A DNA stretch of 64,000 nt from Sycon ciliatum (taxonomy: Eukaryota; Porifera; Calcarea; Leucosolenida; Sycettidae), in the NCBI RefSeq assembly GCF_964019385.1, contig NC_088644.1, positions 18,578,636 through 18,642,635 on the forward strand, given 5' to 3'. Of this stretch, positions 2,346 through 59,343 are shown piece by piece. Below the pieces are notes generated by a model. It had not been told where the DNA came from. It worked only from the letters and a program-made list of their open reading frames with translations, and ran no database searches. Every line of letters starts with the position of its first letter. Positions within the stretch are counted from its first letter, which is position 1. A program made the translations under genes and the position numbers.

Positions 2346-2811
2346 AGAGATTTCGTTCGTTGGATTTCTAATACTGAAGTAGTATAATACAAGTAGGTAG
2401 CAGCATAATGCACACAGATCTAGAGTGCTGAGAGTTGTCGAATGCGGCGAAAGCAAAGTGTAGTAGACACTACTGTACAGGAGTGAAGCAAAGCTGATTT
2501 GTTGTAATGCTGCCTGACTGCTTGCCTGTGTGCAATAATGAGGTGAACTCATAAAACAGTGAGCCGAAAAAAATACGATTAAAAAGCCGATTCACAAACC
2601 AGGTAAAGACAGGAAGAGAAGGAAAGATATGTGCGCATATACCCTGCACCCGTGCACGCACACACACACACACATACACACAGAAGGGAGTTGATAGGTG
2701 GAGAATTGCGAAAACAGGGGACCCAGTGTGCCCTCAAGGAGATAAAGAGATAGAGATAGATAGAGAGATATTTTTGGCACAGTATATTCGGCCCTGGTTT
2801 AAATATGGCTT
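2346..2811. other. no recognisable gene; short CA tract
   Basis: Mixed-composition spacer with a (CA)n tract at 2658-2680 and GATA-rich bases at 2741-2770. No supported coding sequence. Confidence 0.5.
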
Positions 2812-2906
2812 TGGAATTTATTTTTCATTGCAATCAGGTTCGGCCTCATTTCTCTGTGCTGTGCTAATGAGTCCACAAAGGACGAAACAGTTCTGTCCCC
2901 AGATTG
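2812..2906 (+). ncRNA. decayed hammerhead-ribozyme repeat fragment
   Basis: Matches the two copies near 12.3 and 12.9 kb from the ATTTTT(A/C)ATT-like stretch through CAGGTTCGGCCTCATTT to the end of the ribozyme. The core here reads CTAATGA at 2864-2870 where a hammerhead needs CTGANGA, so the essential G5 is A. Stem II (GTCC/GGAC, loop ACAAA), the GAAA box (2884-2887) and stem III (CAG, TT, CTG) are intact. Stem I (CTGTG with CCCAG) has one mismatch. Predicted inactive. Confidence 0.75.
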
Positions 2907-2931
2907 GATAGATAGATATAGATGAAGATAG

Positions 2932-3069
<138 letters not shown>

Positions 3070-4710
3070 CATAGGCAGCTGTCTTGGTCATTATCATCCG
3101 ATGTATTCCGTGTGGCGTAGACCAGGTGTGCATTGAGAATCCTTTCACAAGGCATCGCAATAATTATATTTACGGAATTGGGCAGTAATGCGGTGCTAGT
3201 CTTGATATGTTTCACTCAGGTCATGTCTGATATCGTTGGCATAAGAGAAAATCAGTGGGTGTACATCCACTGCACTTGCAAACTTGCGTGTCTCTCTTGC
3301 GACGAATGCACATGGTACTTGATGTCTGTGTCAATTGGCTCATTCTGTGGGCGAGTGGTTACTGCCTGAGTTCAATGTCGGAAAAGGTAAGTAGCTCTAG
3401 GTGCAGTATAGAGAAAATTATGCCAAATACGCGGTCATTAGGAGAGACTATACCAGCAACTTCGACTCATATACTTCAATATCTAATTGGATCTGTATAG
3501 AAGACGCTGCTCAGTGGTATTGGAGTTGTGGTTGATCAACAGCGTATCTTTTAGGTACATGTGGCATCCATTGGTCTTGTGTGAGTGACACTAGGCATGC
3601 AACCGGACAACGTTGGTGAAAGGTTTCATTACCAAAGAACTTGATTGGTTTGCCATTTAGCTTTCTGTGTGGCGTCACATCGTTTCCGTGGACTGGTTTA
3701 GATTCTTGCCCACGTTTCCAGGAGTCCAGCCAATTAATAGCAGCCGAAGCTATTTGAATAGCCAGACGTTATGTCTTCTTATCTGCTCTGCACTCCATCC
3801 GCTTGCATCAGTAAGCAATGCAAACACGTTGTCCCCTGCACAGGCATGTGACTTCTGCAGGGAATTCCGGGAGAGCGTAAAGTGGCAGGACGAATTACCG
3901 TGAAGTTGCCACATGATCTGAGTACAATCGTAGCACATCAAGTCTTGACACTACTAGTACTTGTGACATGATCAATTCTGCTATGCTCTAATGCAGACTA
4001 GCAATAAGAGGCATTTGTCAGATACTAGTAACCATGAGGTACTGAGATGATTCTCTTCGGCAAGCCACCCACTCTGCAAAAAAATGCGCCAAAATTAATA
4101 ATCTGTCATCTGCCTGCTCCAACTTGACTGTCCTCCTGACAAGTGAAAACCGCTGGCGTTGTCCGGCCATAAACACCATTATTGGCATCAATCCAACGCA
4201 TTAATCCAACGCCTTCGTTGCTCCTCATCTCTGCAGCTCATACCAATAGGTCTGGCACGTCGAAAAACTAAAATACTCGGAGCTACAAGCTACATTTTCA
4301 GAGACAGGGTTGCAAATGGCAAGAAACCCAGCTTCCCTTCACCTTTGGCATCACGAGCAATGACCATTTATCAGCCAGCAATGTTTTACTAGAGCAAAGG
4401 CGCTGGCGGGAACAGAAACAGCAACGTTTCTTTCTCAGCAAAAACAAATAAAAAGGAAAGGAACAAAAAAGGATCAACACCAGGGATTCGTCCATACCCG
4501 GTACCCAGGCCAGGTGTGTACTACTACTACCCCTGGAAAGGCTCTCCCACAGATTGCAGTACAAAAGCCACGGCCAAGTGTCCCACTGAGGTGCGGTCGC
4601 TTGCCCGGACCGCTGGGACGCGGACACCTACGAAGAGCAGCCTGTGACGTTTATTTTTTATGACAGAAAATCCGCAAAAAAAGTTGGGCTTGTCCCTTTA
4701 GGCTTTCGCC
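3070..4710. other. 1.6 kb without recognisable gene or repeat
   Basis: Mixed composition. Open frames of 60-110 codons (for example minus-strand 4298-4627 and plus-strand 3667-3903) carry no motif I recognise and lack repeat copies elsewhere in the window. It could hold unannotated host exons. I see nothing that supports one. Confidence 0.4.
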
Positions 4711-6800
4711 TCTCTATAACATGACCCAGCTGTAATGTCCGTGCTCGCATTGATTTGATTTTTGGTTGGCTTTGAGGGCGCTGGCACCCACATTCAGTGA
4801 CCCAGAAAATTTGGCACTGCTGTGAATAGTTTAGTCGGAAAGTGAAGATTCACGGGTAAAAAGCCTCAATTTGTGAGATAGGCTATTTTTCAGCTTTCAG
4901 CAGCCCTGGGCGAATTCTTTAGAGACATGTGGCTGCTTTTCTTGGTGCACTTGTCTATGTCCAGCTACACAAGGACATGATGACGGTCATTGTCATTTTC
5001 TGAGCTGCGAACGGGCAGAAAGGTGAGAAAATGTCGGATTTTGACCATTTGTGCTGACCTTTGAATTTCATTGTACCTCTCTATAACATGACCCAGCTGT
5101 AATGTCAGTGGTCGCATCGAGTTGACTTTTGGTTTGCTTGGAGGGCGCTGGCACCCACATGCAGTGACCCAGATAATTTGGCACTGCTGTGAATAGTTTA
5201 GTCGGAAAGTGAAAATTCACGGGTAAAAAGCCTCAATTTGTGAGATAGGCTATTTTTCAGCTTTCAGCAGCCCTGGGCGAATTCTTTAGAGACATGTGGC
5301 TGTTTTTCTTGGTGCACTTGTCTATGTCCAGCTACACAAGGACACGATGACAGTCATTGTCATTTGCTGAGCTGCGAACGGGCAGAAAGGTGAGAAAATG
5401 TGGGATTTTGACCATTTGTGCTGACCTTTGAATTTCATTGTACCGCTCTATAACATGACCCAGCTGCATTGTGAGCGGTCGCATTGATTTGATTTTTGGT
5501 TTGCTTGTAGGGCGCTGGCACCCACATTCAGTGACCCAGAAAATTTGGCACTGCTGTGAATAGTTTAGTCCCAAAGTGAAGATTCACGGGTAAAAAGCCC
5601 CAATTTGTGAGATAGGTTATTTTTCAGCTTTCAGCAGCCCGGGGCGAGTTCTTCAGAGAAATTTGGCTCTTTTTCTTGGTGCACTTGTCTATGTCCAGCT
5701 ACACAAGGAGATGAGGATGGTCATTGTCATTTTTTGAGCTGCGAACGGGCAGAAAGGTGAGAAAATGTCGGATTTTGACCATTTGTGCTGACCTTTGAAT
5801 TTCAATGTACCTCTCTATAACACGACGCAGCTGCATTGACAGCAGTCGCATTGATTTGATTTTTGGTTTGCTTGTAGGGCGCTGGCACCCATATTAAGTT
5901 ACCCAGAAAATTTGGCACTGCTGTGAATAGTTTAGTCGCAAAGTGAAGATTCACGGGTAAAAAGCCCCAAACTGTCAGATAGGTTATTTTTCAGCTTTCA
6001 GCAGCCCTGGGCGACTTCTTTAGAGAAATGTGGCTCTCCTTCTTGGTGCCCTTGTCTATGTCCAGCTACACAAGGAGATGAGGATGGTCATTGTCATTTT
6101 CTGAGCTGCGAACGGGCAGAAAGGTGAGAAAATGTCGGATTTTCACCATTTGTGCTCACCTTTCAATTTCAATATACCTCTCTATAACATGACCCAGCTG
6201 TAATGTCAGTAGTCGCATTAATTTAATTTTTGGTTTGCTATCCCGCGAATTATTATTATTACTATTTATTATTTGTAGGGCACTAGTGCTCGCATAGATT
6301 GGATTTTTGGTTTGCTTGTAGGCCGCTGGCACCCACATCGGGTTACCCTGAAAATTTGACACTGCTGTGAATAGTGTAGTCGCAAAGTGAAGAATCACGG
6401 GAAAAAGAGGTCGGTGTGAGTTTCTGAGCTTCGAACGGGCAAAAAGGTGAGGAAATGTCAAACTTTCGACCTGTTGTGCCCATCTTTCACGCTTCAATGT
6501 ACCTCTCTATACCATGACCCAGCTCTAATGTCAATTGTCACATTGATTTGAGTTTTGGTTTGCTTGTAGGCCGCTGGCACCCACATGCAGCGACTCAGAA
6601 AATGTTGCACTTTTGTGAATAGTTTAGTCGCAAAGTGAACAATCACGGGACAAAGCTCCGAACTTGGAAATAGGTTATTTTTCAGCTTTCAGCAGCCCTG
6701 GGCGAATTCTTTAGAGAAATGTGCCTCTTTTTCTTGCTGCACTTCCAGCTATACCCAGCTGTAATGTCAGTGGTCGCGTAGGTTTCATTTTTGGTTTGCT
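4711..6800 (+). repeat. satellite array 1, subfamily A (~366-bp monomers, ~5.5 copies)
   Basis: Tandem head-to-tail monomers share landmarks such as ATAACATGACCCAGCTG, GGGCGCTGGCACCCACAT, TTTGGCACTGCTGTGAATAG, GCAGCCCTGGGCGA and GCGAACGGGCAGAAAGGTGA. The copies become more divergent and partly deleted towards 6800; an AT-rich (TTA)n-like insertion lies at about 6247-6280. The short minus-strand ORFs of about 80 codons inside monomers belong to the satellite. The left edge at 4711 begins within a monomer. Confidence 0.9.
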
Positions 6801-7289: not shown

Positions 7290-8734
7290 TTAATTGTACG
7301 ATTGTCCACGCGTTGAAATAATGTTAAAGGGGACATTCTGTCGCCGGGGACGTTGGCTTGTTCGAGGTGGTACCTGAACAGTTGACTGTGGCGACGACTG
7401 AGTCACAGGGACTGCTTGTGGTGCAGCGTCGGGTACGGGAGACGATGCAGGCATGGCTGTTGAAGCTGGAGTAGGAGGACGGTACGGGCGGAGGTAGCGA
7501 CGGTTGCGCCAATATACGCGTCCACTCGGTAGCTTGACGTAGTAGTCGCGGTGGTCACCGATAGCCACGACAACGAAGCGGGAAGACCACCGTTTTGTCT
7601 TCGGGTGCTGAATGTCAACGTGCGTCCCGATAGACAAGTGGGGGAGCTCTCGGTGAGGCTGACTGGGAGGCTGGTCTACGCGATCAACATCATCCATGTC
7701 AGATGCGGTGTCTTGCCAGTGGGAGTCGAACTGGCTCCATTGGGCGAGAACGAAGGAGACGAGTGGGCGACCATACAGTAACTGGGCAGGACTCTTTCCC
7801 GAAGTGCCAGGAGTATTGCGCCACTCGAGAAGGCCACGCTGGAAAGCATCGGTGTCTAGATTACCATCATTGGTAGTCTTTTCCACCAGGTACTTCATTG
7901 CCTTCACGGCTGCCTCCGCATGTCCGTTCGACTGTGGGTAGTGAGGGGACGACTTGATATGACGGATTCCCCAGCGCTCGCAAAATTCAGCAAATCTGTG
8001 AGACGCAAACTGAGGACCGCCGTCCGTTGAAATGACCTGTGGTACGCCTACATCTGGGAACCACCTGCGGAAATGACGAATGACGTCAGCTGACGTGGCT
8101 GAGTGACCAAGCTTGGCGATGCATGGCCATCCGGTTAAGCGGTCGACGAATACCAAATACTCGCAACCTTGGCAACTGAAAAGGTCAGCACTAACACTTT
8201 CGAATGGCAAAGTGGGCTTGCGGTCAGAAATGGGCGGTTCGGCAGACTGAGACGGCTGAAATTCACGGCATGCATCACAGCTGCGGACTAGCGTGTCTAA
8301 CTCACTGTTCATTCCGGGCCAATACACTGTCTGACGGGCACGTCGTTTGGTACGGGTCAGACCTTGGTGGGCTGCGTGAAGGTCGATCAGCGTTGACGCA
8401 CGCAGAGAGGCTGGGACGACTATGCGTAGACCTTTCAGGACTATGCCATTGTCGGTGGACAAATGTTCACGCACGTTCCAATACGCACGAAGAGGCTCGG
8501 GCAGCTGCTTTTGTGCTGAGGGAAATCCGTTCTGGATATACCCAAGTAGCATCTGGTAGTCAGGATCAGATGCTGCTGCGGCACGGAGCTTAGCGAACTG
8601 GAGACTCTGGGGACCATCTTGGAGTAAACAGATACGGATACTGCGGCAGGACAGTGCTGGATCTTCTCCAAGTTCATCATCACTAGTCGGGATTGATACA
8701 GGATGCCGTGAGAGGGCGTCTGCGAATACGTGCT
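7290..8734 (-). CDS. Ty3/gypsy Pol fragment: RNase H end plus integrase, 5'-truncated
   Basis: Open without a stop from 8734 to 7290 (about 480 codons). The first in-frame ATG (8552) is internal and is not the true start. The upstream end reads HVFADALSRHP, the usual RNase H-to-integrase connection. Numbering from the 8552 Met, the integrase has the zinc-binding H59-H62...C92-C95 and the catalytic triad D123 (SADLF), D177 (STDGGPQF) and E213 (NGHAEAA). A C-terminal chromo/GPY-like region then leads to a Pro/Ser/Gln-rich tail ending RGQSYN. Integrase inserts element cDNA into chromosomes. Protease, RT and most of RNase H are missing: at about 8735 the coding sequence abuts satellite B, and the codon just outside is a stop. 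The frame is intact, so truncation looks recent. Confidence 0.92.
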
Positions 8735-10485
8735 ACATCATCACCTTTGTGTGCCGATTTCAGGAATTCACGGCGGCCAATGTCCATTTTGCAGCCGTGA
8801 ATAGTCGGAAAGGTGAGAAATGGTGAATTTTTTGGAAAGATGAAGGATTAGGCCATGCAATATATACAAAAAGATATGAAAAATGTAAAACACACAGCCA
8901 GTGGGGCTCTATTTTATTTTTATGCCCAGAAATTGCTATTCACCACATAGGCAGTGCCCCTGGAAATTTGACCCTGCTGTAGCTGGCTTGAGTTCCAAGT
9001 CCGGATGTACACGCAAAATGCCCCAATCTTGGAGACAGGTTATTTTCAGGGTTCAGCAGCCCTGGGCAAGTCGTTTATGACAATGTGTGTAATTTCTGTT
9101 GTGCACTGCACTCTGTGTGCCTATTGCGGGAATTCACGGCGGTCACTGCCCATGATGCAGCTGCGAACGGGCAGGTGAGAAATGGTGAATTTTGGCCATT
9201 TGTGCGCACCTGTTCATTTCAATGTACCTGTGGGTTAATGGGCCCAGCTACAATGTGGATCACGAAATTGCTTAGATTTTTGGTTTGCTAGTAGGCGGCT
9301 TACACTAGTAGGCAGTGCCCCAGGAAATTGGACCCTGCTGTAACTGGCTTGAGTTCCAAGTCCGGATGTACGGGGAAAAGCCCCAAACTTGGAAATCGAT
9401 TATTCTCAGATTTCAGCAGCCCCGGGCAGGTCATTTCTGACAATGTGTGTCATTTCTGCTGTGCACTACACTTTGTATGTCTATTGCAGGAATTCATGGT
9501 GGTCACTGTCCTTGTTGCAGCTGTGGATAGTTGGAAATGTGAGAAATGGTGAATTTTTGACCATTTGTGCATACCTGTTCATTTCAATGTACCTGTGGGT
9601 AAATGGGCCCAGCTGCAATGTGGGTGCTGGAATTGCTTAGATTTTTTGGTTTGCTAGTAGGCCGTTTGCACTCGTAGTCAGTGACCCAGGAAATTTGACC
9701 CTGCCGTGACTGGCTTGTGTCCCAGCTCCGAATATACGGGGCAAAAAGCACCAAACTTGGAGATACGGTATTTTCAGGGTTCAGCAGCCCTGGGCAGGTC
9801 GTTTAGGACAATGTGTGTCCTTTCTGATGGCCACTGCCCTCTGTGTGCCGATTTCAGGAATTCACTGCGGTCACTGTCCATGTTGCAGCGGTGAATAGTC
9901 GGAAAGGTGAGAAATGGTGAATTTTTGACCTTTTGTGGGCACCTGTTCATTTCAATGTACCTGTGGGTAAATGGGCCCAGCTGCAATGTGGATGCAGGAA
10001 TTGCTTCGATTTTTGGTTTGCTAGTAGGCCGCTTGCGCTCGTAAGCAGTGCTCCAGAAAATTTGACCCTGCTGTAACTGGCTTGAGTTCCAAGTCCGGAT
10101 GGAAGGGGCAAAAGCCCCAAACTTGGAGAGAGGGTATTTTCAGGGTTCAACAGCCCTGGGCAGGTCGTTTATGACAATGTGTGTCATTTCTGTTGTCCAC
10201 TACCCTCTGTGTGCCTATTGCAGAAATTCACGGCGTAAATGGGGCCCGCTGCAATGTTGGTGCTGGTATTGCTTAGATTTTTGGTTTACTAGTAGGCCGC
10301 TTGCACTCGTAGGCAGTGCCTTAGGAAATTTGAAAAAAAGCCCCAAACTTCTGTAACTGGCTGGAGTTCCGAGTCCGGATGCACACGCAGCCCTGGGCAG
10401 GTCGTTTATGAAAATGTGTGTCATTTCTGTTGTGTGCTATCGCAGGAATTCACTGTGGTCACCGTCCATGTTGCAGTGGTGAATA

Positions 10486-10699: not shown

Positions 10700-11478
10700 T
10701 AGTCGGAAAGGTGATTGGTGAATTTTTGACCATTTGTGCGCACATGTTTTTTTAATGTCCTTTGTGTAAATGGACGCAGCTGCAGTGTGGGCGCTGGAAT
10801 TGTGTTGATTTTTGGTTTGCTAGCTGATTTTGTGAGGTCTGCATTTGCCACTAAGGTGGCCTGCGAAAGCGAAGGCTTGTGTGTTTCTGACCATTCAAGT
10901 GATGCTAAACTCGAATCTCGGGAATATTATTGTAATAGTAGGCCGCTTGTACTCGTAGGCAGTTCGCCAGAAAATTAGACCTTGTTGACCCTGTGACCCC
11001 GTTCCAACTCCGCGTGCACGGGCGAAATGCCCGAAACTTGGAGATGGATAATCTTGAGCTTTCTGCGGCGCATAATGCGTTTGATTTCTGTGGTGCACTA
11101 CCCTTTGTGTGCCTATTGCAGGAATTCACGGTGGTCATTGTCAGTGTTGCAGCTGTGAATAGCCTGAAACATGAGAAATGGTGAATTTTTGGACCATTTG
11201 TGCGCACCAGTTGGCCAAGCTGCAATGTGGGTGCTGGAATTGCTTTGACATTATTTTGGTTTGCTAGTACGCCGCTTGTACTCGTTGGCAGTGCCCTAGG
11301 AGATTTGACCCAGCTGTTACTGGCTTGAGTTCCAAGTCCGGAAACACGGGCAAAAAGCCCCAAACTTGAAGATGGTTATTTTCAGCTTTCAGCAGCCCAG
11401 GCAAGTCGTTTATGGCAATGTGTGTCATTCCTGTTGTTCACTTCTCTTTAGTCGGAAGGTTGAGAAATTGTGAATGTA

Positions 11479-11677
11479 CTGTCGTGGACGTGGAAATCCG
11501 GTCGCACGTCTAGCGGCCCCAGGGCGCTAGCCATGCAGCCGAGGATAAGCGGAATGCTGAATGTATATGCACTGCAGCGCGCTGGTCGCATCGGATCAAC
11601 ATGACTGCACGCAGCGTTCTGTACGCGCTGAGGGCGGCGGTCCCGGTCAATCGACTGGATTTCTATGTCCGCTACAG
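11479..11677. mobile_element. TA-flanked MITE, family CTGTCGTGG
   Basis: Begins CTGTCGTGGACGTGGAAATC and ends in an imperfect inverse (GGATTTCTATGTCCGCTACAG), with TA at 11477-11478 and 11678-11679. Excision restores the satellite B sequence AATGTACCTGTG. Relatives lie at 13554-13758 and 32359-32524. The copies share a GC-rich interior (CTAGCGGCCCCAG, GCGCTGGTCGCATCGGATCA). No ORF. Confidence 0.88.
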
Positions 11678-11750
11678 TACCTGTGTGTAAATGGGCCCAG
11701 TTGCAATGTGGGTGCTGGAATTGCTTTGATTTTTTGATTTGCTGGTAGGG

Positions 11751-12207: not shown

Positions 12208-12433
12208 CTTTGCTGTTTGCGTTATGCAGAGCTCACTGACTTGTCGGTTTGAGCACTCTGGCAAGGTACGTTCGGACCTGATTGGAAATTTTTATTTCCA
12301 TTGCTGTCAGGTTCGGCCTCATTTCCTCTGTGCTGCGCTGACGAGTCCACAAAGGACGAAACAGTTCTGTCCGCAGATTGAGTATTTCGCTCCTGCTCTT
12401 GTAGCAGTTGAGCACTCTTGCGTGGGGTAGTGC
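12208..12433 (+). repeat. hammerhead (retrozyme-like) repeat, unit 1, ~226 bp
   Basis: From CTTTGCTGTTTGCGTTATGC to just before the same string recurs at 12434. It contains a complete hammerhead ribozyme (listed separately) and has no coding capacity. Unit length follows from the 597-bp spacing of the two ribozymes minus the 363-bp MITE and its 8-bp target duplication, which gives 226 bp. Small direct tandem repeats with a type I hammerhead are the known architecture of animal retrozymes and of hammerhead satellites. Whether this one is transcribed or mobile is not shown here. Confidence 0.82.
12326..12382 (+). ncRNA. type I hammerhead ribozyme, intact core (copy 1)
   Basis: Conserved core CTGACGA at 12338-12344 and GAAA at 12358-12361. 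Stem II is GTCC (12345-12348) with GGAC (12354-12357) and loop ACAAA. Stem III is four pairs, A-C-A-G (12361-12364) with C-T-G-T (12367-12370), closed by a two-base loop. Cleavage is expected after C12371 (GTC). Stem I pairs CTGCG (12333-12337) with CGCAG (12372-12376), then after an internal loop CTC (12326-12328) with GAG (12380-12382). All core positions fit the consensus. A very short stem III is the form known from Penelope-like elements and retrozymes and usually cleaves best as a dimer. Confidence 0.9.
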
Positions 12434-12453
12434 CTTTGCTGTTTGCGTTATGC

Positions 12454-12816
12454 TGTCCCCGGGGAAAATTGCGATTCCGCGGCCGCGTTTTTTTCCGCGT
12501 TTTTTGCGATTTTTTAAAAGACCGCGTTTTCCGCGATTTTCCCGCGTTTTTTGAACTTTTTGTTGTACTACACGTACACACAGTGCACTTTTCGGTCAGC
12601 AACGTCTCGTCGTGGCGGCTTTTTACTCAAATAATGGGTGCTTTATACACCAGAGACTTGTAACTGATTGATTTCACTACATACTCACTGAAAATTGCCG
12701 CATTCACCGCATATTTACCGCATATTTACCGCAAATTCACCGCAAATTATGCCATATTATGCCGCGTTTTTTTCCGCGTTTTTTGCGATTTTTTTCCGCA
12801 ATTTTCCCCGGGGACA
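12454..12816. mobile_element. ~363-bp MITE (hAT-like, 8-bp TSD with one mismatch) inside the hammerhead repeat
   Basis: Perfect 20-bp terminal inverted repeats TGTCCCCGGGGAAAATTGCG and CGCAATTTTCCCCGGGGACA. Flanks CGTTATGC (12446-12453) and GGTTATGC (12817-12824) form an 8-bp duplication with one mismatch, and unit 1 shows the uninterrupted site GCGTTATGCAG. The interior is built of CCGCGTTTTT, GCGATTTTTT and ACCGCATATTT motifs and has no transposase. The 8-bp duplication suggests a hAT-type transposase in trans. Alternatively the TIR may begin one base earlier, giving a perfect 6-bp duplication GTTATG. Confidence 0.88.
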
Positions 12817-12922
12817 GGTTATGCAGAGCTCACTGACTTGTCGGTTTGAGCACTCTGGCAAGGTACGTTCGGACCTGATTGGAAATTTTTATTTCCATTG
12901 CTGTCAGGTTCGGCCTCATTTC

Positions 12923-12979
12923 CTCTGTGCTGCGCTGACGAGTCCACAAAGGACGAAACAGTTCTGTCCGCAGATTGAG
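12923..12979 (+). ncRNA. type I hammerhead ribozyme, intact core (copy 2)
   Basis: Same sequence as copy 1, offset by 597 bp: CTGACGA at 12935-12941, stem II GTCC/GGAC, GAAA at 12955-12958, stem III CAG-TT-CTG, expected cleavage after C12968, and stem I CTGCG (12930-12934) with CGCAG (12969-12973). No core change relative to copy 1, so both copies should be catalytically competent if transcribed from the plus strand. Confidence 0.9.
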
Positions 12980-12985
12980 TATTCC

Positions 12986-13177
12986 AAGCAATACATGGCT
13001 GGGGTAGCCAATGACCACTTTGCGTGGCGATTGCAGGGTTTTTATAGCCAACCACGGCTATCATGCACAGTGTACGGGTTCATCACATGATGTGAAGTTC
13101 TGCCGTCGCGGACCCCATACTCCATAGACTAGAGTTGCACACTCTTGGGGGTTACCGGTATGTACTCTTGATGTTAG
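12986..13177. other. spacer, no recognisable gene
   Basis: About 190 bp of unique sequence between the hammerhead dimer and the minisatellite. Confidence 0.5.
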
Positions 13178-13551
13178 GCATCTGAATGTGTGGGATCTGA
13201 ATGTGTGGTGGGCATCTGAACGTGTGGTGGGTATCTGAATATATGGTGGGCAACTGAATGTGTGGTGGGCATCTGATTGTGCGGTGGCATCTGAATGTGT
13301 GGTGGGCATCTGAATGTGTGGTGGGCATCTGAATGTGTGGTGGGTATCCGAATGTGTTGTGGGTATCTGAATGTATGGTGGGCAGTGGGCATCTGAACGT
13401 GTCGTGGGCATCTGAATGTATGGTGGGCATCTGAATGTGTGGTGGGTATCTGAATATGTGGTGGGCATCTGAATGTGTTGTGGATATCTGAACGTGTGGT
13501 GGGCATCTGAATGTGTGGTGGGCATCTGAATGTATGGTGGGTATCTGAATG
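13178..13551 (+). repeat. 19-bp minisatellite, block 1 (~20 units)
   Basis: Consensus CATCTGAATGTATGGTGGG, 19 bp, with TAT/TGT and CAT/TAT variants. As 19 is not a multiple of three, three units translate into a 19-residue peptide repeat in all frames. The long minus-strand ORFs rich in HTFRCPP and HSDA come only from this. Confidence 0.95.
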
Positions 13552-13553
13552 TA

Positions 13554-13758
13554 CTGTCGTGGATATGGAAATCCGGTCACACGTCTAGCGGCCCCAGCGC
13601 GCTGGTCATGCAGCGTGGATAAGCGATACACATGCATTGTACTAGTAAGTAGTATGCGGTCTAGTGCGCTGGTCGCATCGGATCAACAAGACTTGCACTG
13701 CAAGCAGCGCTCTGTATGTGCTGAGGGTGCCGGCACTGGATTTCCATGTCCGCTACAG
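13554..13758. mobile_element. TA-flanked MITE, family CTGTCGTGG (copy 2)
   Basis: Begins CTGTCGTGGATATGGAAATC and ends GGATTTCCATGTCCGCTACAG-like, flanked by TA at 13552-13553 and 13759-13760. Inserted in a TGAATGTA unit of the minisatellite. Closely similar in the interior to the copy at 11479. Confidence 0.87.
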
Positions 13759-13766
13759 TACATTTA

Positions 13767-13963: not shown

Positions 13964-14291
13964 CATGGTGGGCATCAGAATGTATGGGTGGGCATCTGAA
14001 TGTATGGTGGGCCGTTACCCCGTAAAAAAAAAAAAAATCTGAATGTATGCTGGGCATCTGAATGTACGCTGGGCATCTGAATGTACGGTGGGCATATTAA
14101 TGTATGGTGGGCATCTGAATGTATGGTGGGCATCTGAATGTATAGTGGGCATCTGAATGTGTGGTGGGCATCTGAATGTGTGGTGGGCATCTGAATGTAT
14201 GGCGGGCATCTGAATGTATGGTGGGCATCTGAATGTATGATGGGCATGTGAATGTACATGTACATGTATGGTGGGTATCAGAATGTACTGT
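13964..14291 (+). repeat. 19-bp minisatellite, block 2
   Basis: About 15 units of the same CATCTGAATGTATGGTGGG repeat, interrupted at about 14010-14037 by a short GCCGTTACCCCGT followed by 14 A residues, possibly a tiny poly(A)-ended insertion. Confidence 0.93.
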
Positions 14292-18455: not shown

Positions 18456-19112
18456 TGTATTGTGGGCATCTAAATGTGTGGCAGGCATCTGAATGTATGG
18501 TGGGCATCTGAATGTATGGTGGGCATCTGAATGTATTGTGGCGGGCATCTGAATGTATGGTGGGCATCTGATTGTATGGTGGGTATCTGAATGTATTGTG
18601 GGCATCTGAATGTGTGGCGGGCATCTGAATCTATGGTGGGCATCTGGAAGTGTGGTGGGTATGTGACTGTATGGTGGGCATCTGACTGTATGGTGGGTAT
18701 CTGAATGTGTGGTGGGCATCTGAATGTATGGCGGGTATCTGAATGTATGCCAGGTATCTGAATGTATGGTGGGTATCTGAATGTGTGGAGGGCATCTGAA
18801 TGTATGGTGGGTATCTGAAAGTGTGGTGGGCATCTGAATGTATGGTGGGTATCTGAAAGTGTGGTGGGCATGTGAATGTGTGGTGGACATCTGAATGTGT
18901 GGTAAGCATGTGAATGTGTGGTGGGCATGTGAATGTGTGGTGGGTATCTGAAAGTGTAGTGGGCATCTGAATGTATGGTGGGCATCTGAATGTGTGGTAA
19001 GAATCTGAATGTGTAGTGGGCATCTGAATGTATTGTGGGTATGTCAATGTGTGGTGGGTATCTGAATGTGTGGCAGGTATTCAAATCTATGGTGAGCATC
19101 ACAATGTGTAAT
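18456..19112 (+). repeat. 19-bp minisatellite, block 3 (~34 units)
   Basis: Same 19-bp consensus as at 13.2 kb, slightly more diverged at the ends. All long minus-strand ORFs here are its translation. Confidence 0.95.
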
Positions 19113-43860: not shown

Positions 43861-44025
43861 TCAGAAACAGACAATGACCATCCTCATCTCCTTCTGTAGC
43901 TTGACATAGACAAATGCACCAAGAAAAAGAGCCACATTTCCCTAAAGAACTCGCCGAAGGCTGCGGAAAGCTGAAAAATAACCTATCTGACAGTTTGGGG
44001 CTTTTTACCCGTGAATCTTTTCAGC
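43861..44025 (-). repeat. inverted satellite A fragment 1
   Basis: AGAAACAGACAATGACCATC to TTACCCGTGAATCTT is the reverse complement of the GGTAAAAAGCC...GTCTGTTTCTG part of a monomer. Confidence 0.88.
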
Positions 44026-45285
44026 TTCTCTATATCCATCTACACAAGGAGATGAGGATGGTCCTTGTCTGTTACTGAGCTATCAACGGGCGGAAAGGTG
44101 AGAAAATGTCGGATTTTGACCATTTGTGCTGAACTTTCAATTTCAATGTACCTCTCTATAACATGACCCAGCTGTAATATCAGTGGTCGCATTGATTTGA
44201 TTTTTGGTTTGCTTGGAGGGCGCTGGCACCCACATTCAGTGACCCAGAAATTTAGCACTGCTGTGAATAGTTCAGTCGCAAAGTGAAGATTCACGGGTCA
44301 AAAGCCCCCAACTGTCAGATAAGTTATTTTTCAGCTTTCAGCAGCCTTGGGCGAGTTCTTTAGAGAAATGTGGCTCTTTTTCTTGGTGCACTTGTCTATG
44401 TCCAGCTACAGAAGGAGATGAGGGTGGTGATTGTCATTTTGTGAGCTGCGAACGGGCAGAAAGGTGAGAAAATGTCGGAATTTGACCATTTGGGCTGACC
44501 TTTGAATTTCAATGTACCTCTCTATAACATGACCCAGCTGTAATATCAGTGGTCGCATTAATTTGATATTTGGTTTGCTTGGAGGGCGCTGGCACCCACA
44601 TTCATTGACCCAGAAAATTTGGCACTGCTGTGAATAGTTTAGTCGCAAAGTGAAGATTCACGGGTAAAAAGCCGCGATTTGTGTGATAGGTTATTTTTCA
44701 GCTTTCAGCAGCCCTGTGCGAGTTCTTTAGAGAAATGTGGCTCTTTTTATTGGTGCACTTGTCTATATCCATCTACACAAGGAGATGAAGATGGTCATTG
44801 TCTGTTACTGAGCTATTAACGGGCGGAAAGGTGAGAAAATGTCGGATTTTGACCATTTGTGCTGACCTTTAAATTTCAATGTACCTCTCTATAATATGAC
44901 CCAGCTGTAATATCAGTGGTCGCATTGATTTTAATTTTGGTTTGCTTGGAGGGCGCTGGCACCCACATTCAGTGACCCAGAAAATTTGGCACTGCTGTGA
45001 ATAGTTTAGTCGCAAAGTGAAGATTCACGGGTAAAAAGCCCCAAACTGTCAGAAAGGTTATTTTTCAACTTTCAGCAGCCTTAGGCAAGTTCTTTAGAGA
45101 AATGTGGCTCTTTTTATTGGTGCACTTGTCTATGTCCAGCTACACAAGGAGATGAGGATGGTCATTGTCATTTTTTGAGCTGCGAACGGGCAGAACGGTG
45201 AGAAAATGTCGGATTTTCACCATTTGTGCTGACCTTTGAATTTCAATGTACCTCTCTATAACATGACGCAGCTGTAATGTCAGTG

Positions 45286-45445
45286 GTCAGAAACAGACAA
45301 TGACCATCCTCATCTCCTTCTGTAGCTGGACATAGACAAGTGCACCAAGAAAAAGAGCCACATTTCTCTAAAGAACTCGCCCAAGACTCCTGAAAGCTGA
45401 AAAATAACCTATCTGACAGTTTGGGGCTTTATACACGTGAATCTT
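45286..45445 (-). repeat. inverted satellite A fragment 2
   Basis: Same content and same two breakpoints (TCAGTGGTC|AGAAACAG and GTGAATCTT|TTCAGCTTC) as fragment 1. Confidence 0.88.
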
Positions 45446-46345
45446 TTCAGCTTCTCTATATCCATGTACACAAGGAGATGGGGATGGTCCTTGTCTGTTA
45501 CTGAGCTATTAACGGGCGGAAAAGTGAGAAAATGTGGGATATTGACCATTTGTGCTGACCTTTGAATTTCAATGTACCTCTCTATAACATGACCCAGCTG
45601 TAATATCAGTGGTCGCATTGATTTGATTTTAGGTTTGCTTGGAGGGCGCTGGCACCCACATTCAGTGACCCAGAAAGTTTGGCACTGCTGTGAATAATTT
45701 AGTCGTAAAGTGAAGATTCACGGGTAAAAAGCCCCAAACTGTCAGATAGGTTATTTTCCAGCTTTCAGCAGCCTTGGGCGAGTTCTTTAGAGAAATGTGG
45801 CTGTTTTTCTTGGTGCACTTGTCTATGTCCAGCTACAGAAGGAGATGAGGATGGTCATTGTCTGTTTCTGAGCTGCGAATGGGCAGAAAGGTGAGAAAAT
45901 GTCGGATTTTGACCATTTGTGCTGACCTTTGAATTTCAATGCACCTCTCTATAACATGACCCAGCTGCATTGTCAGTGGTCGCATCGATTATATTTGTGG
46001 TTTGCTTGGAGGGCGCTGGCACACACATTCAGTGACCCAGAAAATTTGGCACTGCTGTGAATAGTTTAGTCGCAAAGTGAAGATTTACGGGTAAAAAGCC
46101 CCAAACTGTCAGAAAGGTTATTTTTCAGCTTTCAGCAGCCTTATGCGAGTTCTTTAGAGTAATGTGGCTCTTTTTATTGGTGCACTTGTCTATGTCCAGC
46201 TACACAAGGAGATGAGGATGGTCATTGTCATTTTTTGAGCTGCGAACGGGCAGAACGGTGAGAAAATGTCGGATTTTGACCATTTGTGCTGACCTTTGAA
46301 TTTCAATTTACCTCTATAACATGACCCAACTGTAATGTCAGTGGT

Positions 46346-46505
46346 CAGAAACAGACAATGACCATCCTCATCTCCTTCTGTAGCTGGACATAGACAAGTG
46401 CACCAAGAAAAAGAGCCACATTTCTCTAAAGAACTCGCCCAAGACTGCTGAAAGCTGAAAAATAACCTATCTGACAGTTTGGGGCATTTTACCCGTGAAT
46501 CTTTT
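46346..46505 (-). repeat. inverted satellite A fragment 3
   Basis: Same breakpoints as fragments 1 and 2. Spacing from fragment 2 is 1060 bp against 1425 bp between 1 and 2, a difference of one monomer. Confidence 0.88.
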
Positions 46506-48281: not shown

Positions 48282-51200
48282 TTAACGGGCGGAAAGGTGA
48301 GAAAATGTCGGATTTTGACCATTTGTGCTGACCTTTCAATTTCAATGTACCTCTCTATAACATGACCCAGCTGTAATGTCAGTCGTCGCATTGATTTGAT
48401 TTTTGGTTTGCTTGGAGGGCGCTGGCACCAACATTCAGTGACCCAGAAAATTTGGCACTCCTGTGAATAGTTTAGTCGCAAAGTGAAGATTCACGGGTAA
48501 AAAGTCCCAAACTGTCAGATAGGTTATTTTCCAGCTTTCAGCAGCCTTGGGCGAGTTCTTTAGAGAAATGTGGCTCTTTTTCTGGGTGCACTTGTCTATG
48601 TCCAGCTACACAAGGAGATGAGGATGGTCATTGTCTGTTTCTGAGCTGTGAACGGGCAGAAAGGTGAGAAAATGTCGGATTTTGACCATTTGTGCTGACC
48701 TTTCAATTTCAATGTAACTCTCTATAACATGACCCAGCTGTAATGTCAGTCGTTGCATTGATTTGGTTTTTGGTTTGCTTGGAGGGCGCTGGCACCCACA
48801 TTCATTGACCCAGAAAATTTGGTACTGCTGTGAATAGTTTAGTCGCAAAGTGAAGATTCACGGGTAAAAAGCCCCAAACTGTCAGATAGGTTATTTTCCA
48901 GCTTTCAGCAGCCTTGGGCGAGTTCTTTAGAGAAATGTGGCTCTTTTTATTGGTGCACTTGTCTATGTCCAGCTACAGAAGGAGATGAGGATGGTCATTG
49001 TCTGTTTCTGAGCTGTGAACGGGCAGAAAGGTGAGAAAATGTCAGATTTTGACCATTTGTGCTGACCTTTGAATTTCAATGTACCTCTCTATAACATGAC
49101 CCAGCTGTAATATCAGTGGTCGCATTGTTTTGATTTTCGGTTTTCTTGGAGGGCGCTGGCACCCACATTCAGTGACCCAGAAAATTTGGCACTGCTGTGA
49201 ATAGTTTAGTCGCAAAGTGAAGATTCACGGGTAAAAAGCCCCAAACTGTCAGAAAGGTTATTTTTCAGGTTAGCAGCCTTGGGCGAGTTCTTCAGATAAA
49301 TGTGGCTCTTTTCTTGGTGCACTTGTCTATGTCCAGCTACACAAGGAGATGAGGATGGTCATTGTCTGTTTCTGAGCTGCGAACGGGCAGAAAGGTGAGA
49401 AAATGTCGGATTTTGACCATTTGTGCTGACCTTTCAATTTCAATGTACCTCTCTATAACATGACCTAGCTGCGTTGTCAATGGTCGCATTGATTTGATTT
49501 TTGGTTTGCTTGGAGAGCGCTGGCACCCACATCCATTGACCTAGAAAATTTGGCACTGCTGTGAATAGTTTAGTCGCAAAGTGAAGATTCACGGGTAAAA
49601 AGCCCCAAACTGTCAGAAAGGTTATTTTTCAGCTTTCAGCAGCCCTGGGCGAGTTCTTCAGAGAAATGTGGCTCTTTTTCTTGGTGCACTTGTCTATGTC
49701 TAGCTACACAAGGAGATGAGGATGGTCATTGTCATTTTATGAGCTGCGAACGGGCAGAAAGGTGAGAAAATGTCGGATTTTGACCATTTGTGCTGACCTT
49801 TGAATTTCAATGTACCCCTCCATAACATGACCCAGCTGCGTTGTCAATTGTCGCATTGATTTGATTTTTGGTTTGCTTGGAGGGCGCTGGCACCCACATT
49901 CATTGACCCAGAAAATTTGGCACTGCTGTGAATAGTTTAGTCGCAAAGTGAAGATTCACGGGTAAAAAGCCCCAATTTGTGTGATAGGTTATTTTTCAGC
50001 TTTCAGCAGCCCTGGGCGAGTTCTTCAGAGAAATGTGGCTCTTTTTCTTGGTGCACTTTTCTATTTCCAGCTACAGAAGGAGATGAGGATGGTCATTGTC
50101 TGTTTCTGAGCTGTGAACGGGCAGAAAGGTGAGAAAATGTCGGATTTTGACCATTTGTGCTGACCTTTGAATTTCAATGCACCTCTCTATAACATGACCC
50201 AGCTGTAATATCAGTGGCGGCATTGATTTGATTTTTGGTTTTCTTGGAGTGCGCTGGCACCCACATTCATGACCCAGAAAATTTGGCACTGCTGTGAATA
50301 GTTTAGTCGCAAAGTGAAGATTCACGGGTAAAAAGCCCCAAGCTGTCAGAAAGGTTATTTTTCAGCTTTCAGCAGCCCTGGGCGAGTTCTTCAGAGAAAT
50401 GTGGCTCTTTTTCTTGGTGCACTTGTCTATGTCTAGCTACACAAGGAGATGAGGATGGTCATTGTCATTTTATGAGCTGCGAACGGGCAGAAAGGTGAGA
50501 AAATGTCGGATTTTGACCATTTGTGCTGACTTTGAATTTCAATGTACCCCTCCATAACATGACCCAGCTGCGTTGTCAATTGTCGCATTGATTTGATTTT
50601 TGGTTTGCTTGGAGGGCGCTGGCACCCACATTCATTGACCCAGAAAATTTGGCACTGCTGTGAATAGTTTAGTCGCAAAGTGAAGATTCACGGGTAAAAA
50701 GCCCCAATTTGTGTGATAGGTTATTTTTCAGCTTTCAGCAGCCCTGGGCGAGTTCTTCAGAGAAATGTGGCTCTTTTTCTTGGTGCACTTTTCTATGTCC
50801 AGCTACAGAAGGAGATGAGGATGGTCATTGTCTGTTTCTGAGCTGTGAACGGGCAGAAAGGTGAGAAAATGTCGGATTTTGACCATTTGTGCTGACCTTT
50901 GAATTTCAATGCACCTCTCTATAACATGACCCAGCTGTAATATCAGTGGCGGCATTGATTTGATTTTTGGTTTTCTTGGAGTGCGCTGGCACCCACATTC
51001 ATGACCCAGAAAATTTGGCACTGCTGTGAATAGTTTAGTCGCAAAGTGAAGATTCACGTGTAAAAAGCCCCAAACTGTCAGAAAGGTTATTTTCAGCTTT
51101 CAGCAGCCCTGGGCGAGTTCTTCAGAGAAATGTGGCTCTTTTTCTTGGTGCACTTGTCTATGTCCAGCTACACAAGGAGATGAGGATGGTCATTGTCATT

Positions 51201-54200
51201 TTTTGAGCTGCGAACGGGCAGAAAGGTGAGAAAATGTCGGATTTTGACCATTTGTCCTGACCTTTGAATTTCAATGTACCTCTCTATAACATGACCCAGC
51301 TGTAATATCAGTGGTGGCATTGATTTGATTTTTCGTTTCCTTGGAGGGCGCTGGCACCCACATTCAGTGACCCAGAAAATTTGGCACTGCTGTGAATAGT
51401 TTAGTCGCAAAGTGAAGATTCACGGGTAAAAAGCCCCGATTTGTGTGATAGGTTATTTTTCAGCTTTCAGCAGCCCTGGGCGAGTTCTTTAGAGAAATGT
51501 GGCTCTTTTTCTTGGTGCACTTTTCGATATCCATCTACACAGGGAGATGAGGATGGTTATTGTCTGTTACTGAGCTATTAACGGGCGGAAAGGTGAGAAA
51601 ATGTCGGATTTTGACCATTTGTGCTGACCTTTGAATTTCAATGTACCTCTCTATAATATGACCCAGCTGTAATGTCAGTCGTCGCATTGATTTGATTTTT
51701 GGTTTGCTTGGAGGGCGCTGGCACCCATATTCAGTGACCCAGAAAATTTGGCACTGCTGTGAATAGTTTAGTCACAAAGTGAAGATTCACGGGTAAAAAG
51801 CCCCAATTTGTGTGATAGGTTATTTTTCAGCTTTCAGCAGCCCTGGGCGAGTTCTTCAGAGAAATGTGGCTCTTTTTCTTGGTGCACTTGTCTATGTCCA
51901 GCTACAGAAGGAGATGAGGATGGTCATTGTCATTTTCTGAGCTGCGAACGGGCAGAAAGGTGAGAAAATGTCGGATTTTGACCATTTGTGCTGACCTTTG
52001 AATTTCAATGCACCTCTCTATAACATGACCCAGCTGTAATATTAGTGGCGGCACTGATTTGAATTTTGGTTTGCTTGGAGTGCGCTGGCACCCACATTCA
52101 TTGACCCAGAAATTTGGCACTGCTGTGAATAGTTTAGTCGCAAAGTGAAGATTCACGGGTAAAAAGCCCCAAACTGTCAGAAAGGCTATATTTCAGCTTT
52201 CAGCAGCCCTGGGCGAGTTCTTTAGAGAAATGTGGCTCTTTTTCTTGGTGCATTTGTCTATGTCCAGCTACACAAGGAAATGAGGATGGTCATTGTCATT
52301 TTTGTAGCTGCGAACGGGCAGAAAGGTGAGAAAATGTCGGATTTTGACCATTTGTGCTGACCTTTGAATTTCAATGTACCTCTCTATAACATGACCCAGC
52401 TGTAATGTCAGTCGTCGCATTGATTTGATTTTTGGTTTGCTTGGAGGGCGCTGGCACCCATATTCAGTGACCCAGAAAATTTGGCACTGCTGTGAATAGT
52501 TTAGTCACAAAGTGAAGATTCACGGGTAAAAAGCCCCAATTTGTGTGATAGGTTATTTTTCAGCTTTCAGCAGCCCTGGGCGAGTTCTTCAGAGAAATGT
52601 GGCTCTTTTTCTTGGTGCACTTGTCTATGTCCAGCTACACAAGGAGATGAGGATGGTCATTGTCATTTTCTGAGCTGCGAACGGGCAGAAAGGTGAGAAA
52701 ATGTCGGATTTTGACCATTTGTGCTGACCTTTGAATTTCAATGCACCTCTCTATAACATGACCCAGCTGTAATATTAGTGGCGGCACTGATTTGATTTTT
52801 GGTTTGCTTGGAGTGCGCTGGCACCCACATTCATTGACCCAGAAATTTGGCACTGCTGTGAATAGTTTAGTCGCAAAGTGAAGATTCACGGGTAAAAAGC
52901 CCCAAACTGTCAGAAAGGCTATATTTCAGCTTTCAGCAGCCCTGGGCGAGGTCTTTAGAGAAATGTGGCTCTTTTTCTTGGTGCACTTGTCTATGTCCAG
53001 CTACACAAGGAGATGAGGATGGTCATTGTCATTTTTGTAGCTGCGAACGGGCAGAAAGGTGAGAAAATGTCGGATTTTGACCATTTGTGCTGACCTTTGA
53101 ATTTCAATGTACCTCTCTATAACATGACCCAGCTGTAATGTCAGTCGTCGCATTGATTTGATTTTTGGTTTGCTTGGAGGGCGCTGGCACCCATATTCAG
53201 TGACCCAGAATATTTGGCACTGCTGTGAATAGTTTAGTCACAAAGTGAAGATTCACGGGTAAAAAGCCCCAATTTGTGTGATAGGTTATTTTTCAGCTTT
53301 CAGCAGCCCTGGGCGAGTTCTTCAGAGAAATGTGGCTCTTTTTCTTGGTGCACTTGTCTATGTCCAGCTACAGAAGGAGATGAGGATGGTCATTGTCATT
53401 TTCTGAGCTGCGAACGGGCAGAAAGGTGAGAAAATGTCGGATTTTGACCATTTGTGCTGACCTTTGAATTTCAATGCACCTCTCTATAACATGACCCAGC
53501 TGTAATATTAGTGGCGGCACTGATTTGATTTTTGGCTTGCTTGGAGTGCGCTGGCACCCACATTCATTGACCCCGAAATTTGGCACTGCTGTGAATAGTT
53601 TAGTCGCAAAGTGAAGATTCACGGGTAAAAAGCCCCAAACTGTCAGAAAGGTTATTTTTCAGCTTTCAGCAGCCCTGGGCGAGGTCTTCAGAGAAATGTG
53701 GCTCTTTTTCTTGGTGCACTTGTCTATGTCCATCTACACAAGGAGATGAGGATGGTCATTGTCATTTTTTGAGCTGCGAACGGGCAGAAAGGTGAGAAAA
53801 TGTCGGATTTTGACCATTTGTGCTGACCTTTGAATTTCAATGTACCTCTCTATAACATGACCTAGCTGCGTTGTCAATGGTCCCATTGATTTGATTTTTG
53901 GTTTGCTTGGAGGGCGCTGCACCCACATTCATTAACCCAGAAAATTTGGCACTGCTGTGAATAGTTTAGTCGCAAAGTGAAGATTCACGGGTAAAAAGGC
54001 AAAAACTGTCAGAAAGGTTATTTTTCAGTTTTCAGCAGCCCTGGGCGAGTTCTTTAGAGAAATGTGGCTCTTTTTCTTGGTGCACTTGTCTATATCCATC
54101 TACACAAGGAGATGAGGATGGTCATTGTCTGTTACTGAGCTATTAACGGGCGGAAAGGTGAGAAAATGTCGGATTTTGACCATTTGTGCTGACCTTTGAA

Positions 54201-54335
54201 TTTCAATGTACCTCTCTATAACATGACCCAGCTGTAATATCAGTGGTCGCATTGATGTGATTTTTGGTTTGCTTGGAGGCGGCTGGCACCCACATTCAGT
54301 GACCCAGAAAATTTGGCACTGCTGTGAATAGTTTA

Positions 54336-56441: not shown

Positions 56442-57841
56442 AACATTGTGGAATGGGACAGCTCACGCAGAATACTGGAATAGCTCAAGTATCTCTAGAT
56501 GATTGTAAATCCTGTTCTGGCTGATAGCTTCGGCCTGCTGCGCCCGTCCATGTACAATGATGGGATCATGCATTTCTGTTTTCTACATATTTGCCAGCTA
56601 CTGTACTGTGCTATTACAGTTGTAGGTCCCTTATATAGAAATATGTTCAACCCCCCCCCCCCACATTATAAATATGAACTAACAACTTCACTGTTGGACT
56701 CGCCGGCGGCTAGAGAGCAAAGGATTGATTTATAGCAAAGAAAAGGACCAGGGAACTACAAGTTACGCTATAATGTCCGCGAACAATTTTACTGTATTTG
56801 AAATAATTTGTTTGAGACCCTGAGAACTCTGAAACTTTGCAGCACTGTGGATTATATGTGGATACAACATTTATGGAAGGAAAAGTGGAATAATTTCTAA
56901 CATATTGTTCAAATAATTATAGCAATGAATTGTTGAGATTGTGAGCCCATTCCAATCAGCACTCTACATATTTATAAGCGGTGGTAATCGTTAGGAATAG
57001 GTCGTGAGTTGTCAGAGTGCTCTAGTATATGAGAGAATGTTTTGTTTGTCTAACCGACGGCTCGTTTGAAGCCAGAGTTGTTGGAACTTGTTTCAGTCGA
57101 CTTGATTCTAGACAGTAGTCGAAGGAGTACTATGAAGTATACACCAGACGTAGTCTGTATGGTATCTCGTGAGAATTCTGTCGGTACACATCAGGTATCA
57201 GCTTGCAAAGGTGGCTCCTCTCTGTTTCTTGAAAGCCTGTATAGTTGGACTGTGGCTCCAGCGATTCTCTTCTCAGAGCAGATACCATACCCAATACGGT
57301 CAATGCATATTGGACAGACCTGTGTGCACAACAGAAATAGTGGAGAGAAATCTCTCAGCTCATGAACACATAAGTGAAGTTTGAACTGCCATTGTTTGTG
57401 GCCATCAGTATAAACCTATCGAGTATAAGAATAACGTGCAAAAAACCTCTATAACTACAGCTGGGGCCATGGAATTATAAAGCATCTAACTTAGGGAACT
57501 GCCAATTCTGGCCTGAGTTGCGTTTGAGGCCTGCAATTCATGATGGCTATCGTATGTTGCATTGACCAGAGATAGAACTTCCAAATGCCACATTGAAACA
57601 CGAACCACTTTCGAGTACTTTGGTATCCCCCACCAAATGGGCATTCGTTCCCGGGGTGGCAGGCGTCACCATTCGTTATGCCTGGATCAGATTTCATTGA
57701 CCCCAACTGTCATGAAGAATCATTTTCACTTTGACAGGATTTCAGTACAAGTTGTAGAACTGCAGAATCAATTTTGTTGTATTTGGGCAACCATTTCTCT
57801 ACGAACGCTCTATTTGGAAAATAGAATTTTTTTCTAAAAAT
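56442..57841 (+). other. rest of the Kolobok-like element body, unassigned
   Basis: Contains a C-run at 56651-56662 and broken frames. No recognisable domain. It continues to the LINE insertion near 57842. Confidence 0.4.
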
Positions 57842-59343
57842 ACATGTCCAAGTTGACAAGTATATTGCAAGACTGCCTCTGAACAAATCCCCCGGAGCTG
57901 ATAGGATCACCAATGAGATCCTCAGGAAACTGAGCTACTCAATTGCCCGCCCACTCTCCATTCTTTTTAACCTTTCCCTCTCCTCCGGCACATTCCCGTC
58001 ACGATGGAAGTCAGCCACTGTCATTCCAGTGTACAAAAATAAAGGCGACAAGAACAACCCGTCTAATTACCGACCAATCTCCCTCCTGTCCTGCGTCTCC
58101 AAACTGCTAGAGAGAATAGTGTACGACCGCTTGTACGACCATATCTCCCCTCTTCTTCACCCCGCACAATCTGGCTTCCGTCGTAAGGACAACACATCCC
58201 TGCAATTATCCCGCATAATCCAAGACCTCTGTTCCCTAAAAGACCAGCGGCAGGTCTCCTGCATCTGTTTCTTCGACCTCTCCAAGGCCTTCGACACCGT
58301 GTGGCACAAGGGCCTGATCGCCAAACTTCGTGCCCATGGTGTCTCCGGCTCCCTACTCGCCTGGATAACTAGCTATCTCTTGGACCGAAATCAGTGCGTC
58401 ACAGTAAATGGAACCTTATCTGACCCCGAGTCTGTGACATCCGGAGTGCCCCAGGGCTCCATTTTAGGTCCCCTGCTCTTCCTCACATACGTTAATGACC
58501 TCCCCTATTCAATTCCCAATATTTCTTTGTTTGCAGATGATACCACTGTCCTTGCTTCCTCCCCATCTCACGCCACCCTGTACCCCAAAGTTCAGACCTG
58601 TATCAACGACATTGTTCACTGGATGAGCACTTGGTACCTTAAGCCAAATGTGACCAAAACCGAGCTCCTCCTGTTTCCCCCTCCCACAGATCCAGTGCCC
58701 ATCTTCCACTTTCCCGATGATCCCGGTCACCCTATCTCTGTAGCGCCCCACCATAAACACCTTGGCATTGTCATAGATTCCGCCCTCTCCTGGTCTCACC
58801 ATGCTGATCATGTGTCGTCCAAAGTATGCCGATCTGTCGGCATAATGTCAAGTCACTTGTCCCATTTGCCCAAAAATTGCCGGATTAATTTTTATAAATC
58901 ATACATTCTTCCCCTCTTCACGTACGGCTTCCCTGCCTGGTCCACCATTAACAAAACCCACATAGGTAAATTAGAAGTTCTCCATCGCCGTATACTGCGA
59001 ATCATATTCCGTACTGATCGTTATACCTCAAATCTAGACTTGTATGCTGCTGCATCCACTACCACTCTGCAACATTACCTTGATGCTTCCAAGTGCACCC
59101 TGGCGCATTCAATTTTCCTTGACCAGCACCCTGCTCATTTACAGTCCCTTAATTGGTTCAATTCAGGTGGCACCACCCGAAGCTGCGTTCGTCTCCCCCT
59201 AGCTAGGTCTACCCTATTCGTAAATTCCCCTTTATTTTCCTCCTACTCCACGGGGCTCCAACTGCCTCCCAGTGTTAGACAAGCTCCAGATATGCCCAAA
59301 TTCCGTACCCTCGTCAGACAGCACTTCAGTATCTCCCAGTAAA
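57842..59343 (+). CDS. 5'-truncated LINE ORF2: reverse transcriptase (CR1/Jockey-like)
   Basis: Open in one frame from about 57842 (LPLNKSPGADRITNEIL) to TAA at 59341-59343, about 500 codons. The first GTG/ATG-type start, 58029, is internal. Numbering from 58029: YRPISLLSC near residue 14 (finger), FFDLSKAFDTVWH with catalytic D83, SGVPQGSILGPLLF at 138-151, and FADDTTVLAS with catalytic D170-D171. Then come the KTELLLF block, a thumb HLGIVID, and the C-terminal HRRILRIIFRTDRY region. The endonuclease and ORF1 are absent, as expected of 5' truncation during target-primed reverse transcription. The surviving frame is intact, so the insertion is fairly young. Confidence 0.93.

Follow-up and report, generated by a model that had tools for sequence, protein, structure and literature searches.

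The locus at 12208-12983 of the window (the whole 64-kb stretch of DNA analysed here) is, judging from its sequence, probably a non-autonomous animal retrozyme that was copied by reverse transcription and later struck by a MITE-like transposon. A retrozyme-like element is the best reading of the size of the unit, its tandem order, the type I hammerhead ribozyme within it, the lack of a long open reading frame (ORF) and its recurrence in the window. On this best reading the retrozyme looks young, and the element seems to be an ordinary addition to the animal retrozymes already described. An earlier, sequence-only reading had called the locus a retrozyme-like tandem dimer of a 226-bp repeat. The five points above fit its retrozyme-like character and the 226-bp period stands, but the copies are interrupted by a 365-bp insert and the second copy is partial, holding 179 of 226 bp. 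Observed directly were the build of the locus, the ribozyme match, the fact that the copies are identical and that the insertion came later, and another locus in the window, now decayed; the features are as follows.

12208-12433, plus strand: first copy of the 226-bp retrozyme-like unit, complete (repeat boundaries, blastn self-search)
12333-12376, plus strand: type I hammerhead ribozyme 1 (RF00163 at 30.1 bits, descriptor scan, letters checked)
12434-12452, plus strand: first 19 bp of the second copy (unit positions 1-19), closing with the left GTTATG at 12447-12452
12453-12817, no strand assigned: MITE-like insert of 365 bp with perfect 21-bp terminal inverted repeats, CTGTCCCCGGGGAAAATTGCG (inverted-repeat search, letters checked)
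12818-12823, plus strand: right-hand GTTATG of the 6-bp target-site duplication
12824-12983, plus strand: rest of the second copy (unit positions 20-179)
12930-12973, plus strand: type I hammerhead ribozyme 2, with the same letters as ribozyme 1 (RF00163 at 30.1 bits, descriptor scan, letters checked)
2788-2907, plus strand: third, older copy, 5'-truncated, with similarity perhaps from 2775 (blastn and alignment)

The letters of 12208-12227 are found again at 12434-12453, giving the period of 226 bp. The two units abut directly, and the insert begins 19 bp into the second. When the insert and one copy of its duplication are removed, the second copy covers unit positions 1-179 and is identical to the first at all 179 of them, and the retrozyme locus measures 405 bp, or 1.8 units. 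This identity between the copies suggests a single recent copying event. The 3' end of the dimer, at 12983, lies 15 nt past the second cut site. That the repeats hold no ORF, as had been claimed, was confirmed: no start-to-stop ORF of at least 180 amino acids was found across the repeat units, and the four stop-to-stop frames of 101-134 amino acids that run across them are all without a Pfam match. A retrozyme unit should be about 150-450 bp, tandem and non-coding, and should contain a type I hammerhead; what was found is a non-coding tandem with a 226-bp period and 1.8 units, in which the hammerhead scores 30.1 bits and shows the core and three stems. The G+C content is 50.0%, compared with 46.4% for the window.

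By their letters, the two type I hammerhead motifs are intact and real as motifs. Each consists of stem I (CTGCG/CGCAG), the core CTGACGA and stem II (GTCC/GGAC) with the loop ACAAA, followed on the 3' side by GAAA, stem III (ACAG/CTGT) and the cut triplet GTC. An internal loop and an outer stem I of CTC/GAG are additionally possible in the ribozyme region. The two full cores and the GTC triplets of the sequence-only reading both hold, with the triplets ending at C12371 in ribozyme 1 and C12968 in ribozyme 2, after which the cuts would fall. Infernal searching with the type I hammerhead model had been proposed as a check. RF00163 aligns to 12332-12377 and to 12929-12974 at 30.1 bits each, with an E-value for both of 3.9e-5 in a 1.2-kb stretch and of 0.0021 over the 64-kb window and all 4227 families, but these scores lie below the gathering (curated) cut-off of 34 bits. 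An Rfam search at that gathering score listed nothing. A general type I descriptor, composed after the motif had been seen, matches exactly two places on both strands of the 64 kb, which are the two ribozymes, and has no match in any of 100 Markov-1 surrogates made from the window.

Could these motifs be a chance resemblance, with no ribozyme at all? The score under the Rfam cut-off would allow it, as would a best predicted fold that differs from the hammerhead, although the Rfam consensus likewise does not have the hammerhead as its best fold in the same energy model. The E-value over the window and all families, the presence of the core and all three stems, the empty surrogates and a third copy that preserves most of the motif all argue the other way, and we find a chance origin scarcely credible.

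The 365-bp insert has the features of a MITE. It is short, its 21-bp terminal inverted repeats agree at 100% and GTTATG stands on both of its sides, at 12447-12452 and at 12818-12823; in its length, terminal inverted repeats and short target duplication it resembles MITEs and non-autonomous TIR DNA transposons. With such termini and a duplicated target, the insert must therefore have arrived after the dimer had formed. The order of events is readable at the locus, with the ribozyme dimer first and the DNA transposon second. It is set apart from these by a 6-bp duplication and a CTGTCCCC terminus that have no assigned superfamily. A blastn self-search found no second copy of the insert in the window, its terminus occurs at 0 loci in a collection of viral contigs, and the open-licence literature returned nothing useful on its features.

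The insert changes what the locus could release. Cleavage at C12371 and C12968 had been expected to free a 226-nt unit, an expectation that fails here: the two cut sites are 597 apart, and with the 365-bp transposon between them the RNA released would be 597 nt. Both ribozymes are intact in sequence, so cleavage of a transcript at the two sites is still possible.

The four-pair stem III with a two-base loop that the sequence-only reading assigned to each hammerhead did not survive folding. That form is disallowed in the standard energy model, and the three-pair hairpin of the stem III strand ACAGUUCUGU is predicted at +1.3 kcal/mol. Stem III has 3-4 possible pairs and its strands are nearly self-complementary, such that ACAGUUCUGU with a second copy of itself is predicted at -8.2 kcal/mol, in a duplex that includes a U.U,U.U mismatch. 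An unstable hairpin together with a stable self-duplex points to a double hammerhead, and in these models the ribozyme more plausibly acts as a pair of hammerheads than singly. The available parts of two papers report a double hammerhead for newt and axolotl repeats (PMC7229834) and suggest one for Penelope elements (PMC7761336).

As a whole, the unit is predicted to be strongly self-paired. The linear unit is predicted at -80.1, where shuffles average -67.5 and 1 of 200 does as well; the circular 226-nt RNA is predicted at -75.7, where they average -63.4 and 3 of 300 do as well. The stability of the 64-nt ribozyme region is not out of the ordinary, with 35 of 200 shuffles equalling it. Neither the unit nor the bare ribozyme has the hammerhead as its best predicted fold, and adopting the hammerhead fold in the predicted circle costs 8.4 kcal/mol. 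Within the predicted rod, the 5' half of the ribozyme pairs with an upstream stretch of the unit through 16 pairs (duplex -24.4 kcal/mol). Ribozyme-blocking pairing is reported in the literature for viroids and plant retrozymes. An evolved blocking arm was rejected here: the duplex energy is reached by 247 of 2000 shuffles of the rest of the unit and the cost of the ribozyme fold by 91 of 200, neither being above chance. An internal pol III promoter is not supported either. The A-box-like TGGCAAGGTACG and B-box-like GGTTCGGCCTC score 14/18, a value reached by 33 of 500 shuffles, and a TTTTT run separates them.

The third copy, which the sequence-only reading had overlooked, lies 9.3 kb from the dimer, embedded in a GATA/AG-rich simple repeat. 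Searching with the unit by blastn gave 2811-2906 (87.9% over 99, E 2.8e-29), which alignment widens to approximately 2788-2907, or possibly from 2775; the aligner set an 11-nt gap in it. Between unit positions 75 and 173 this copy shows 12 substitutions in 98 compared columns, along with a single gap, indicating that copies of different ages exist. Its core has changed from CTGACGA to CTAATGA and one stem I pair is broken; from what is established for hammerheads, the change at G5 should abolish activity. The best Rfam match at this copy is Hammerhead_3, at 19.1 bits (E 0.21) and far under its cut-off, and the Rfam search gave no Hammerhead_1 match there. In total, the 64-kb window holds two loci, with two intact ribozymes and one decayed. 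An nhmmer profile built from the three known copies, whose E-values for these same copies are not evidence, found no fourth copy over the window; six further rows with E-values from 3.4 to 8.6 were disregarded. The 3' ends beyond the ribozyme are similar, at unit position ~173 in the third copy and 179 in the dimer, while the 5' ends differ (~50 and ~1, respectively). Similar 3' ends with different 5' ends fit reverse transcription, weakly so with two loci.

The element is close to published descriptions of animal retrozymes. In the accessible portion of Cervera and de la Pena 2020 (PMC7229834), these are non-LTR, non-autonomous elements of many phyla, 170-400 nt long, with a type I hammerhead and tandem from dimers up. 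The same portion gives retrozyme repeats of 220-240 bp for the coral Acropora millepora, target-site duplications of more than 4 bp 'when present' and a G+C content below 45-50%. Likened to these metazoan non-LTR retrozymes by description and not by sequence, our element shares the type I hammerhead, a unit of ~230 bp, the arrangement as a dimer or more, the presence at more than one locus and a highly self-paired predicted RNA. It is unlike them in its G+C content of 50% and in having a dimer that is partial and split by a DNA transposon. Additionally, the ribozyme core is paired away in the predicted circle here, though not above chance; that portion of the paper reports this for plant retrozymes and some mussel circles, though not for most animal retrozymes (PMC7229834). 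Amphibian retrozymes (newt, axolotl), as covered in the same pages, are similar in their very weak stem III but have a unit of ~330-350 bp versus 226 bp (PMC7229834), and they differ further from the present element in its 3-4 possible stem III pairs and the U.U,U.U mismatch of its duplex.

Several observations count against the retrozyme reading. No target-site duplication of the 405-bp element itself was found, the exact matches touching its ends being no longer than TATT, and its right flank, where 9 of 20 bases are A or T, is not AT-rich. The ribozyme score is lower than the Rfam cut-off, the G+C content of 50% is at the top of what is published, and two loci only are seen in the window. 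The best predicted folds other than the hammerhead, the cost of the hammerhead in the predicted circle, the ordinary stability of the ribozyme region and the absence of a recognised Penelope-type helper among the 50 Pfam-scanned ORFs weigh on the same side. In favour stand the predicted stability of the unit as linear and as circular RNA and a left flank rich in A and T (18 of 20 bases).

The main rival, which we regard as unlikely, sees the repeats as what is left of the pseudo-LTRs of an autonomous Penelope-like element that has lost its coding part here. Such elements, in the available parts of two reports, carry tandem type I hammerheads with a short stem III, and their pseudo-LTRs are tandem or partial-tandem (PMC11167929, PMC7761336). 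Stem III is weak in our element too. One Penelope-like element described in those parts prefers AT-rich targets and starts reverse transcription internally (PMC11167929, PMC7761336), and an AT-rich left flank, with 18 of 20 bases A or T, fits that preference. However, published Penelope hammerheads are, in the accessible text of PMC7761336, minimal and without helix III or loop contacts, whereas the hammerhead here could form 3-4 pairs in helix III and perhaps an outer stem I. The two units also abut directly, with the insert 19 bp inside the second. Finally, no Penelope ORF was recognised: the 50 Pfam-scanned ORFs of the window (49 of the 89 listed plus one) include no GIY-YIG domain and no recognised Penelope-type helper, although decayed pieces could escape. 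Two of the scanned ORFs hold the reverse transcriptase domain PF00078 (RVT_1), which alone is not superfamily-specific, and we take these two to be LINE-like and DIRS-like.

Less likely still is an origin from satellite DNA bearing hammerheads, of which the unit would be a fragment; unequal crossing-over and segmental copying, not RNA, would then have spread it. Hammerhead satellites are known in newts (PMC6155905) and in cave crickets and schistosomes (PMC2837043, PMC8490949), according to the parts of these papers at hand, and the window does have large tandem arrays of another repeat. Against this, the unit amounts to just 1.8 copies at one place and a single truncated copy 9.3 kb off, and the similar 3' and different 5' ends speak for RNA, few as two loci are. 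We find a satellite origin very doubtful.

For the preferred reading, a retrozyme copied by reverse transcription, we infer transcription, cleavage, circularisation and a helper enzyme. The 226-bp unit, transcribed as at least two head-to-tail units, would fold two type I hammerheads, which would probably pair mutually via stem III and cut both sites. The unit-length RNA so released would then be closed by a host ligase, and a reverse transcriptase acting in trans would copy this RNA for more than one round, or an uncut dimer, into the present site. The outcome would be the 1.8-unit insertion, 405 bp long before the later insert. Since the dimer ends 15 nt past the cut site, the RNA template was presumably uncut there, or circular. 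The helper could be an element of either RVT_1 ORF's kind, or one outside the window. Afterwards the 365-bp inverted-repeat transposon landed in the second copy, duplicating 6 bp of target, and the locus would now encode a 597-nt product.

With this element the animal retrozymes gain one sequence family. Were the locus transcribed, it would offer a natural test of whether two hammerheads still cooperate 597 nt apart and can circularise foreign cargo; without transcription, it is ordinary. A bolder proposal is that an early-branching animal (sponge-like by one neighbouring element) has a retrozyme family not yet described, in which the transposon between the ribozymes gives a 597-nt chimeric circular RNA, so that ribozyme-flanked cargo is circularised and possibly re-mobilised; we hold this to be a long shot. 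Exact patterns for the ribozyme or unit occur at 0 loci in the viral and prokaryotic contig collections and have no match among phages, which says little for animal elements. Titles and abstract openings in the open-licence literature showed no study of hammerhead ribozymes in sponge animals.

The window contains other mobile elements and repeats. On the minus strand, an ORF (62090-63838) encoding a reverse transcriptase domain and an RNase H domain neighbours a second ORF (61314-62306). This neighbour has no Pfam match and is by its look presumably a tyrosine recombinase, suggesting a DIRS/Ngaro-like element. Of the 120 matches listed for the 62090-63838 ORF, three bear a name, and two of these are from the sponge Sycon ciliatum, at 49-50% identity. 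A further reverse transcriptase ORF lies at 57825-59339 on the plus strand, and an integrase ORF with an H2C2 zinc finger at 7293-8729 on the minus strand; we take these to be LINE-like and Gypsy-like, respectively. Among the matches listed for 57825-59339, the coral Paramuricea clavata is the best-ranked named organism (44% over 47% of the query), with molluscs, lancelet and bacterial bins ranked lower. The best matches listed stand at 99% for the 62090-63838 ORF and at 96% for the 57825-59339 ORF. Judging by these neighbouring retroelements, we take the host for an animal.

A 367-bp repeat forms arrays at 4709-6239, 44025-46346 and 48284-54335, with up to 16.5 copies and 93% matches, and has a diverged relative at 8948-10235. 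A minus-strand Rfam match to MIR2646 at 46142-46441 (105.9 bits, E 5.5e-22, far under the cut-off of 245) overlaps the end of one of these arrays. Arrays of a 19-bp minisatellite with a unit close to GGCATCTGAATGTGTGGTG occupy 13177-13552, 14037-14256 and 18462-19073. The retrozyme region is itself flanked by diverged direct repeats, ~75% identical, at 11471-11680 and 13546-13761.
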